Assembly (NCBI RefSeq): GCF_023516215.1 | Contig: NZ_CP097349.1 | Coordinates: 2,294,001 to 2,358,000 of the forward strand | Direction of reading: 5' to 3' | DNA length: 64,000 nt | Source: Cytobacillus pseudoceanisediminis | GTDB taxonomy: Bacteria; Bacillota; Bacilli; Bacillales; Cytobacillaceae | Shown: piece after piece, positions 1-64,000 of the stretch | Layout: each line of letters begins with the position of its first letter | Numbering within the stretch: position 1 is the stretch's first letter | The notes under the pieces: generated by a model | The model's input: the letters and a program-made list of their open reading frames with translations, nothing else | What the model was told of the DNA's origin: nothing | Databases searched by the model: none | Position numbers and translations under genes: made by a program

Positions 1-237
1 ATCAGCCAGGTCGATATGAGCAATTACTTTCGAATCTTTTTCATCGAAAGTGTCGGTGTAAACATCATGTCTTGAAAGAGCCTGAAAGGTTAATGGTGCT
101 ACAAACTTAGCAGCCGATTCACTTAGGATAACTTTCACCTGCGCTCCAGCCTGAGTAAGCTTGCTCGTTAAGGCTGCAGCTTTATAAACAGCAATTCCGC
201 CGGTTACACATAATAATATCTTCTTTCCAGTCAGCAT
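1..237 (-). CDS. coaBC: CoaBC bifunctional phosphopantothenoylcysteine decarboxylase/synthetase, N-terminal part (runs off the window)
   Basis: Coenzyme A biosynthesis: the CoaC half of this flavoprotein decarboxylates 4'-phosphopantothenoylcysteine. Only the first 79 codons are present; the gene continues past base 1. The translation opens MLTGKKILLCVTGGIAVYK, the typical CoaC/Dfp flavoprotein N terminus with its GGIA(V/A)YK motif, followed by the expected SKLTQAGAQVKV strand-helix segment. The ATG at 235-237 follows a GGTGGGG ribosome binding site. It lies downstream of rpoZ, as in B. subtilis, but two hairpins separate them (279-321 and 395-425), so it may have its own promoter. The family is clear; the synthetase half cannot be judged. 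Confidence 0.93.
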   Translation of the reverse strand, partial: MLTGKKILLCVTGGIAVYKAAALTSKLTQAGAQVKVILSESAAKFVAPLTFQALSRHDVYTDTFDEKDSKVIAHIDLAD

Positions 238-278
238 TATATGACCCCACCAATCTAAAAAAATAATTCATCTCTATG

Positions 279-321
279 AAAAACGGCCTGCTATATATTT
301 CTATAAGCAGCACTGGCCGTT
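279..321 (-). other. Hairpin with short U-tail in the coaBC leader
   Basis: On the minus strand AACGGCC and GGCCGTT form the outer stem, TGCT and AGCA can extend it, and TTT follows. It lies between the stronger rpoZ terminator and the coaBC start. It could be a second, weak terminator or an attenuator-like element in a coaBC leader. Function is not known. Confidence 0.45.
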
Positions 322-394
322 AATGGCTTAGTTTTCATGATAGTTTTATTATGCAAGAAGAGCAGTGAATTTTCATCTAATAAAACCTTTAAAC

Positions 395-425
395 AAAAAT
401 AACAACCTTTTAAAAGGTTGTTATT
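395..425 (-). terminator. Rho-independent terminator after rpoZ
   Basis: The minus strand reads AATAACAACC, TTTTAAAA, GGTTGTTATT and then a U run. The stem is perfect and begins 9 bases past the rpoZ stop, ending the remA-gmk-rpoZ transcript. Confidence 0.85.
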
Positions 426-433
426 CAGCGATT

Positions 434-655
434 TTACTCGTATGATTCATTCGCAGTCTTTTCACCAAGCCGATAATGAAGCTGGTCCGCATGGATTTCC
501 TCAAGTGCTTTTCCCACATTTTTATGTGATTTATAGCTCTCAAGCTGTGGTCTGGCATTAAGCTGAAGCTTACGGGCACGCTTGGCAGCAACAGAAACAA
601 GTGAATATTTGGAATCAATCTTTGTCATTAGAGAATCAATAGAAGGATAAAGCAT
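434..655 (-). CDS. rpoZ: RNA polymerase omega subunit
   Basis: Small subunit that helps assemble and stabilise RNA polymerase by clamping the beta' C-terminal region. It has 73 residues, close to the B. subtilis length. The N terminus [20 protein letters not shown] and the following VAAKRARKL helix are the conserved omega core. The gene begins 2 bases after the gmk stop and is followed by a strong terminator, so it is probably the last gene of a yloC-remA-gmk-rpoZ transcription unit. A second reading frame overlaps it but shows no family features and is ignored. Confidence 0.95.
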
Positions 656-657
656 AT

Positions 658-1272
658 TTATTCTACCTCCAGCATCTTTTTGTATTTAGGTTCTACACGT
701 TCCCTGCGGCAGTGTTCTGCTACTACAATGGATTTAATTCTTTCGCAGGCAAGATCGATTTGATCATTCTCTACAACATAATCATATAAGTTCATCATTT
801 CGATCTCTTCTTTCGCTGCACTCATGCGATTGTTAATTATATCTTCTGTCTCTGTTCCCCTGGTTACGATACGGTTCTTAAGCTCGGATAAACTAGGTGG
901 AACCAGGAAGATGAACAAGCCGTCAGGGAATTTCTCACGCACTTGGCGGGCACCCTGAACTTCGATTTCAAGAAAAACATCTTTGCCCCGGTCCAGTGTT
1001 TCTCTTACATAATCAACTGGCGTTCCGTAGTAGTTACCGACGAACTCTGCATATTCAAGCAGCTTATCCTGCCTGATCAGCTCTTCAAACTCTTCACGCG
1101 TTTTGAAAAAATAATCAACTCCATTGACTTCTCCTGCTCTCGGAGATCTCGTTGTCATTGATATGGAGTATTCAAACGCAGTATCAGGCTGAGCAAATAT
1201 CTCTTTTCTTACTGTTCCTTTTCCTACACCTGAGGGTCCGGATAGAACAATCAATAACCCTTTTTCTTTCAT
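658..1272 (-). CDS. gmk: Guanylate kinase
   Basis: Phosphorylates GMP to GDP with ATP, an essential step in guanine nucleotide synthesis and salvage. The protein has 204 residues, the usual length. The P-loop GPSGVGKGT lies near residue 12, followed by the GMP-binding segment with [11 protein letters not shown] and DYFF, and the EVQGARQV stretch. The start ATG at 1270-1272 gives the standard N terminus. It sits between remA and rpoZ as in B. subtilis, separated from rpoZ by two bases, which suggests coupled translation. In Bacillus, Gmk is among the enzymes inhibited by (p)ppGpp. Confidence 0.97.
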
Positions 1273-62181: not shown

Positions 62182-62280
62182 GGCTGCCTCCTTGTAATTG
62201 GTTAAACTATTTATAATATTAGCAAAAATATACATAGACAGGTACTTATTGATGAGGCAAAATCACTGCCTAAAAACGAC

Positions 62281-62310
62281 AAAAGCACAAGAACTAAGTT
62301 CTTGTGCTTT
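62281..62310 (-). terminator. Terminator after rpmF
   Basis: AAAGCACAAGAACT and AGTTCTTGTGCTTT make a perfect 14-bp dyad on the minus strand, ending in U-rich sequence just past the rpmF stop codon. Confidence 0.88.
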
Positions 62311-62322
62311 ATATCTAAAGGA

Positions 62323-62496
62323 TTAGTCGTTTACTACTTCTTTTCCTTTGTAAGTTCCGCAAGCTTTGCAAACGCGGTGAGCAAGTTTCATTTCACCACA
62401 GTTTGGGCATTCTACCATACCAGGAACCTGTAATTTAAAATGGGTACGACGTTTTCTCTTCGCAGTTTTAGATGTTCTTCTAAAAGGTACAGCCAT
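62323..62496 (-). CDS. rpmF: 50S ribosomal protein L32
   Basis: Structural protein of the large ribosomal subunit, 57 residues from the ATG at 62494-62496 ([20 protein letters not shown], after AGGAGGTGGG). The C terminus has two CxxC pairs (CPNCG and CKACG), so this is the zinc-binding (C+) form. It follows ylbN (yceD family), the usual pairing across bacteria. Confidence 0.97.
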
Positions 62497-62614
62497 TCTT
62501 CCCACCTCCTTAAAGAGTATTAGAGGATGTCCATAGGAATTGGACACACCCATTAAGAAAGTTATGAAGGCCAGAGCAAGCTGGTGTCTTCAAGTGCTTC
62601 TTGTTTTTCTTCCG

Positions 62615-63139
62615 TTATGAATCGGAAGAAGGATCATTCTGATCAAAAAATTGAGCAAGTCCGGCAAGACGAGGATCTACTTTATCCTGTTTATCCTGCT
62701 CCTGAATGACCTCCCAATCCTTACCGGATTGAGGAGCTCCTTCTTCACTGCTGTCTTCGCAGAAAACTTGCATTGGGACTTCGAGTAAAAGGATCTCATG
62801 AAGGATCGGATTTAAATCAATCACATCCCCTTTTACCTGGTGAACCTCCTCTTCAGTCTCATAATCAAGACCTTTTAAAAGGAAAGTTTCAGTTGTTTCA
62901 ACATTAATTGGATAATTTACGTCAACTAAAGTACGAGAACAAGGTAATATTAAATGACCCTTTATATTTAAATGAAAAGTCACTTTGGCAGAATCAATAT
63001 CCGTACGGCCCGTCACATGCATTGGTGATGCACCGCGTATTTCCGGATTCAATTTCATGACCTCATCAACATTGACAGTTTCATCAATGGGAAAATCCTT
63101 GCTTCGATATTTTTGTAACTGACTTAAAGTCCATTTCAT
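62615..63139 (-). CDS. ylbN: YceD-family (DUF177) protein YlbN
   Basis: A 174-residue protein of the YceD family, which accompanies rpmF in most bacteria and in E. coli and plants is linked to 23S rRNA processing or accumulation. It has the start MKWTLSQLQKY, the central SMHVTGRTDIDSAKVTFHLN-like strand region (SPMHVTGRTDID) and the conserved single cysteine in LILPCSRTLVDV. The acidic C terminus contains DPRLAGLAQFFDQ, the family end motif. ATG 63139 follows GGGGTGAT. Confidence 0.92.
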   Translation of the reverse strand: MKWTLSQLQKYRSKDFPIDETVNVDEVMKLNPEIRGASPMHVTGRTDIDSAKVTFHLNIKGHLILPCSRTLVDVNYPINVETTETFLLKGLDYETEEEVHQVKGDVIDLNPILHEILLLEVPMQVFCEDSSEEGAPQSGKDWEVIQEQDKQDKVDPRLAGLAQFFDQNDPSSDS

Positions 63140-63340
63140 ACGAATCACCCCAAGGCAACAAAGGTAATTATAGCCTTCCTATAATTATTTGTCAATATTT
63201 TTTCTTTACACTATAATGTAGCTAATATCCTACTATTGAAGGCTTCTTCAGTAAAAAAATTTTGCAGGATTTAAAGATTTTGTTTCTTAATACTTTTTCC
63301 ATTACATATCTTTTTAAACCTTTTCGAGGAGTATGTCAAT

Positions 63341-64000
63341 ATGAATGCAACAGGTGTAATTGTAGAATATAATCCTTTTCATAACGGCCATGTTTTTCAT
63401 TTGGAGCAGGCAAAAAAAGTTTCAGGTGCAGAAACCATTATAGCTGTCATGAGCGGCAACTTTCTCCAGAGGGGGAACCTGCATTAGTTTCCAAATGGAA
63501 ACGTGCTGAAATGGCATTAAGAGCGGGTGCAGATATTGTATTTGAGCTTCCATACCAGTTTGCTGTTCAGCAGGCAGATATTTTTGCAAGCGGAGCTGTA
63601 TCCATTCTGGAAGCAGCCGGCTGCAGGAGCCTTTGCTTCGGAAGCGAATCCGGCAGTATGGAAAGCTTTCACCAAACTTTATCTTTTCTTGAGGAACATA
63701 ATTCTGCCTATCAAGAAAGGGTCAGAGTGCATCTGGATGCTGGCTTCAGCTATCCCAAAGCAACATCGATGGCATTCCTCGATCTGAACCCTGAAGGTGA
63801 ATTGGTAGACCTTTCAAAACCTAATAATATTCTTGGCTTTCAGTATTTAAAGTCAGCCCGAAGGCAATATTCATCCATGGAACTTTTTACAGTTGCAAGA
63901 AAAAGCGCAGGATACCACGACGAACAATTTGCTTCTGATTCTATAGCAAGTGCCACAAGCATAAGAAAAGCACTTTTTTCCAAGAATGGAGAGATTGAAT
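63341..64000 (+). CDS. tmcAL: tRNA(Met) cytidine acetate ligase TmcAL (YlbM), N-terminal part, frameshifted
   Basis: Makes N4-acetylcytidine at the wobble base of elongator tRNA-Met from acetate and ATP. The N terminus [20 protein letters not shown] has the HxGH-like nucleotidyl-transferase motif (NPFHNGH), followed by [10 protein letters not shown]. The frame breaks at the G5 run 63471-63475; one more G gives [21 protein letters not shown] and continues open to the window end with [17 protein letters not shown] and SATSIRKAL. The start follows GAGGAG. The gene runs off the window and is divergent from ylbN. Confidence 0.93.

Follow-up and report, generated by a model that had tools for sequence, protein, structure and literature searches.

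Bacterial assemblies built from long reads and left with uncorrected homopolymer indels are the closest described counterparts of the sequence analysed here. In the sections of the Homopolish report drawn on here (PMC8011154), the errors that outlast polishing are mainly homopolymer insertions and deletions (indels), which lead to frameshifts, and 151–5298 pseudogenes were counted after Racon–Medaka treatment of R9.4 data. The corresponding sections of the Kastor report (PMC12007338) give 23.3% pseudogenes before correction and put deletions after long runs down to uncertain run length, and in an excerpt from a third study on nanopore data, no class of artificial low-frequency variant was larger than deletions in runs (PMC11927395). 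The window considered here, a stretch of 64,000 nucleotides (G000:C1:2294001-2358000) from a Cytobacillus assembly, carries twenty frame breaks in its core genes. Judged from the sequence, these breaks almost certainly reflect consensus under-calling of homopolymers in a long-read assembly, an ordinary artefact, and the strain's own genes are presumably intact. The losses have a strong direction, depend on run length, leave coding DNA unprotected, extend over the whole genome and are absent from relatives.

As far as the cited sections go, the assemblies described for Homopolish and Kastor resemble this one in the dominance of homopolymer indels and the many false frameshifts, the 23.3% pseudogenes of Kastor lying close to the 26% of open reading frames (ORFs) affected here; they differ in that a dependence on neighbouring bases was measured here and in that the platform is inferred here. 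In the proposed mechanism, a basecalling or consensus step would report homopolymers about one unit short. For A/T runs the chance of shortening would climb from a few percent at 6 bases to almost every run at 9, and for G/C runs it would do so between 5 and 7 bases. Acting on both chromosome and plasmid, such a step would leave about a quarter of long ORFs with at least one frame-changing difference from G020, the same-species genome used as the main reference.

Direction, run length and extent of the losses

The assembly totals 5,690,443 bases in two contigs (5,347,902 and 342,541 bases) and has a completeness rating of 99.58%. Besides G020, three outgroups were used: G017, about 96% identical, and G032 and G018, both about 95% identical. 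The window aligns with G020 in a single end-to-end alignment of 99.744% identity, with 126 mismatches, 30 deletions and 5 insertions. At each of the twenty frame breaks claimed in the initial annotation, the window has a deletion relative to G020 that changes the frame. They had been described as almost all one-base losses at homopolymers, nineteen of them mended by one base, and this description holds: in 18 of the 20 a run is simply shorter, by one base at 17 sites and by two at spoVD 48805, the only site two bases short. The homopolymer context ascribed to them is present at nearly all sites and fails at ftsZ (33304–33307), where a lone base is lost from a CT-rich tract and not from a homopolymer. 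The first break in pyrK, originally placed at 10227–10231, is best read as a run shortening with an adjacent substitution.

Eighteen of the 20 sites are scorable in at least one of G017, G032 and G018, and each scored relative agrees with G020. The two exceptions (24930 and 54085) have differing flanking bases in the relatives, yet all three keep these genes open. The idea that the error lies in G020 and not in the window is close to negligible in probability: the three outgroups side with G020 at all scorable listed sites and have open genes there, and G020 resembles the other 34 congeners in the run census given below. Among the 55 G020 ORFs of at least 90 amino acids that lie fully inside the window alignment (tmcAL, cut by the alignment end, is left out), 19 contain a frame-changing indel, counting two that overlap and share one site and one whose site lies beside the start. 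Coverage by a single frame falls below 90% for 13 of these 55 ORFs in the window and for 0 of 55 in each of G017, G032 and G018.

For the chromosome as a whole, the window and four 100-kilobase (kb) blocks elsewhere were compared with G020 over 425,132 aligned bases. Long runs were defined as at least six A/T or at least five G/C; alignments shorter than 1,500 bases, overlapping alignments and runs with differing flanking bases were dropped, and coding masks were the longest-ORF sets of G020 in place of a curated annotation. In this sample 169 long runs (116 coding, 53 noncoding) are shorter than in G020 and 3 are longer, polarisation by outgroups covering the changes in the window alone, so that part of the 169 falling in the four blocks may be true strain differences. 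All indel openings together comprise 237 losses and 66 gains. Extrapolated by arithmetic, and not counted, 169 per 425,132 bases would correspond to about 2,260 shortened runs in 5.69 Mb. Shortening rises steeply with run length, from 30 of 719 A/T runs at 6 bases to 56 of 236 at 7, 33 of 42 at 8 and 5 of 5 at 9–10, and from 18 of 247 G/C runs at 5 bases to 22 of 31 at 6 and 5 of 5 at 7; the statement that both A/T and G/C runs are hit is borne out by these measured losses.

The deficit is also visible without alignment. In a census of whole genomes, covering this assembly and 35 other Cytobacillus (36 in total), exact 9-base A/T runs number 13 here and 51–144 in the others, and exact 7-base G/C runs number 1 here and 14–65 in the others; this is the only genome of the 36 depleted in exact long runs. 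Frame-changing indels, after those within 30 bases of ORF ends had been dropped, affect 87 of 332 ORFs of at least 150 amino acids (26%), some of which may be true strain differences: 16 of 47 in the window and 13 of 63, 18 of 75, 20 of 66 and 20 of 81 in the blocks.

The plasmid was sampled in one of five 20-kb stretches (L161, G000:C2:40001-60000), set against plasmid pBO1 of Cytobacillus oceanisediminis 2691. It shows 15 losses, 0 gains and 2 substitutions, with 13 of the 15 losses inside A/T runs of 6–8 or G/C runs of 5, whereas the CK19 plasmid record, compared with pBO1 over the same stretch, has 52 mismatches, 4 losses and 2 gains. Shortening was found on both replicons, in the window, the four chromosomal blocks and the plasmid stretch.

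Divergence, coding context and rival explanations

The initial annotation had read the breaks as under-calling and not biology, and the observed ratio of losses to gains, rise with run length, coding distribution, spread over replicons and relation to divergence all agree with under-calling. One strand of that case does not discriminate: the rise with length alone leaves room for a mismatch-repair mutator, and the reading is upheld by the other tests. A true mutator, in which mutS and mutL had been lost and homopolymers had shrunk by real mutation, is very unlikely, although both genes are frame-broken in the assembly and the excerpted account of mutS-deleted Vibrio describes single-base homopolymer indels at a rate that climbs with run length, as here (PMC5854121). 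The same excerpt describes near-balanced indels and many transitions, with a slight deletion bias in Vibrio fischeri and none in V. cholerae, in contrast to 169 losses against 3 gains in long runs and few low-divergence substitutions here. Bacillus subtilis hypermutators, in the part of the report used, likewise show mostly transitions, with indel rates that climb with run length (PMC11890065).

Across 102 segments of 4 kb, grouped by 0, 1–2, 3–8, 9–20 and more than 20 substitutions (the first class holding 6 segments), losses per segment are 1.17, 2.21, 2.17, 1.89 and 2.09, and gains are 0.17, 0.00, 0.13, 0.25 and 0.87. Losses do not track strain divergence, and gains do so among the most diverged segments. 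Where a segment has two substitutions or fewer, as 20 do, the total is 38 losses and 21 substitutions, 14 of them transitions, in contrast to the transition-dominated mutator spectra of the cited excerpts (PMC5854121, PMC11890065); transitions make up 906 of all 1546 substitutions.

Real losses should spare coding runs, and coding runs are not spared. Coding and noncoding shortening rates are alike for A/T runs of 6 and 8 and G/C runs of 5 and 6 (Fisher P from 0.68 to 1), and the two strands behave the same. In the window region, 21 of 142 coding long runs are shortened in the window, against 1 of 114 in G017, 1 of 112 in G032 and 0 of 112 in G018, with 0, 0, 1 and 1 lengthened, respectively; the noncoding counts of shortened runs are 5 of 49, 2 of 34, 1 of 34 and 2 of 36 in the same order. 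The initial annotation also listed essential genes among those hit; murB, murG and ftsZ, which are essential in B. subtilis, are broken in the window.

Slippage of RNA polymerase or the ribosome has been proposed to rescue genes with poly(A) tracts in insect endosymbionts. That the losses here are real, with frames restored in this way, is exceedingly improbable: most breaks do sit in runs that permit slippage, but the runs hit include G/C runs with 4 bases left, noncoding runs are affected equally, the genome is of a large, free-living type, and the short state is private to this genome at scorable sites. The pattern expected of programmed or rescued frameshifting, confined to coding runs and common to relatives, was not seen among the sites compared. 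A living strain combining the two ideas, with real genome-wide contraction after loss of mutS and mutL that leaves one-base losses in about a quarter of long genes, including core cell-wall genes, and is tolerated through polymerase or ribosome slippage, is likewise very unlikely. The mutator was rejected on direction, spectrum and essential genes, and slippage rescue and an error in G020 were rejected as well.

Several observations weigh against under-calling as the whole account. The first is the state of mutS and mutL themselves (L172 and L174, G000:C1 ~2129464-2133757), broken at A/T runs 7 and 6 bases long; these are the same type of run as elsewhere and the breaks are possibly the same error, and with 87 of 332 ORFs hit, a broken mutS and a broken mutL are expected by chance. 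mutL also differs by 9 bases in frame. Second, at A/T runs of 7 the coding rate of shortening exceeds the noncoding rate (44 of 145 against 12 of 91, P = 0.003), a difference that neighbouring bases explain only in part. Third, runs below the long-run limits are shorter in 43 cases and longer in 12, some of these being true strain differences, and a few losses, such as that in ftsZ, lie outside long runs; by eye no motif is evident at the latter, several of which look like the loss of one isolated base flanked by two runs.

Runs of T7 followed by C, on either strand, are shortened in 39 of 93 cases and other T7 runs in 17 of 180 (P = 1e-9; the 7-base-run background also takes in non-aligned stretches), and within these two classes the difference between coding and noncoding runs is not significant (P = 0.34 and 0.12, respectively). 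The most likely platform is Oxford Nanopore without short-read polishing, since the assembly is closed in two contigs, is biased towards losses and depends on neighbouring bases. PacBio continuous long reads, or a different technology prone to mis-sizing homopolymers, may instead have produced the same artefact, an unlikely but sizeable alternative. PacBio does err in homopolymers, which account for 92% of errors in circular consensus sequencing (CCS) reads as quoted in the section of PMC12007338 used here; against it, the excess of shortening at T7 followed by C hints at a k-mer signal, a suggestive point only, and the present tests do not separate the platforms.

The losses are almost certainly a known kind of long-read error and no real biological feature; their import is for data quality and not for biology. 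A completeness of 99.58% coexists here with 87 of 332 sampled long ORFs changed in frame relative to G020, and it is unsafe to rely on the assembly for numbers of genes, lists of pseudogenes or fusion genes. The assembly would also wrongly label the strain as deficient in mismatch repair. Counting the exact 9-base A/T and 7-base G/C runs and comparing the totals with those of congeners exposes the fault immediately.

Sites in the window

The sites in genes are on the reverse strand unless stated otherwise, and each frame break is at a shortened run except that in ftsZ, described above; the first pyrK site has an adjacent substitution as well. In yloB, encoding a calcium P-type ATPase (4422–4427), rqcH, encoding an NFACT protein (6713–6718, forward strand), and pyrK (10225–10231 for the run and its adjacent substitution), the genes are intact in G020, G017, G032 and G018; pyrK has a second break at 10336–10342. 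The break in pyrB (16175–16178) creates the false fusion that had been predicted, a pyrB–pyrC ORF of 746 amino acids (14880–17120) covering dihydroorotase and aspartate carbamoyltransferase. Further breaks lie in pyrR (19071–19074), divIVA (24930–24935), pgeF (27926–27930), ylmC (28567–28572) and sigE (30158–30163), and the ftsZ site is near the C terminus of its product. They continue through ylxW (37598–37603), divIB, with FtsQ/DivIB domains (38441–38446), murB (39142–39146), murG (40384–40387 and 40455–40460) and spoVD, a transpeptidase with a PASTA domain (48805–48810), to bshC (54085–54090), yngE (57226–57230) and tmcAL (63471–63475, forward strand). The runs in divIVA and bshC are not scorable in the relatives, and both genes are open in all of them.

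Matches of the intact copies to NCBIfam and Pfam agree with most of the gene names first assigned. YloB, RqcH, YlxW, YngE and TmcAL are names from B. subtilis; the family matches are to a calcium P-type ATPase for yloB, an NFACT protein for rqcH, DUF881 for ylxW and HIGH_NTase1 for tmcAL, and the yngE product has a carboxyltransferase-like match under the family cut-off.

Eight losses lie beyond the twenty first listed. One is an extra break in ylxW, near the C terminus (37116–37121, reverse strand), in a run that is not scorable in the relatives although the gene is open in all of them. Another is an in-frame loss of 3 bases within a 10-base run (17229–17235) in the reverse-strand ORF 17216–18517. 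Shortened runs outside ORFs are found upstream of pyrB (17067–17072) and at 35797–35803, 55073–55078, 56571–56576 and 63253–63259, the last not scorable in the relatives. Next to the spoVE start a further run is shortened (42354–42358, reverse strand); likewise not scorable, it is probably upstream of the true start. Of the 30 deletions, the remaining pair is not restricted to the window: the outgroups are divided at 295, and at 51490/51495 they all share the window's state, a difference that on sequence comparison is a change in G020.

Other features of the window and genome

Outside the sampled regions, leuS (G000:C1:5041320-5043722) has an open frame of 796 amino acids (809 in G020), and a stop is reported within its N-terminal match; this shortening is probably the same artefact. 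The product of rpoC is full length, at 1209 amino acids both here and in G020. The pBO1 stretch that matches G000:C2:40001-60000 encodes a group II intron reverse transcriptase/maturase and carries a DNA cytosine methyltransferase gene.

In the pyr region of the window, two PyrR binding sites are predicted on the reverse strand, at 18541–18654 and 19249–19372. A phage search with the first 25 kb returned only two Listeria phage records, with 71.6% identity over 11019–12271, inside a 1070-amino-acid ORF (10586–13798). A T-box leader (24228–24490, reverse strand) lies upstream of the ORF matched as IleRS (21361–24132). An intergenic repeat of about 70–100 bases occurs in two copies that are about 85% alike (31462–31563 and 38549–38651); with the first copy as query, there are at least 43 matches in this genome, at least 45 in G020 and at least 45 in G017, and the repeat folds better than shuffled sequences (z −2.5).

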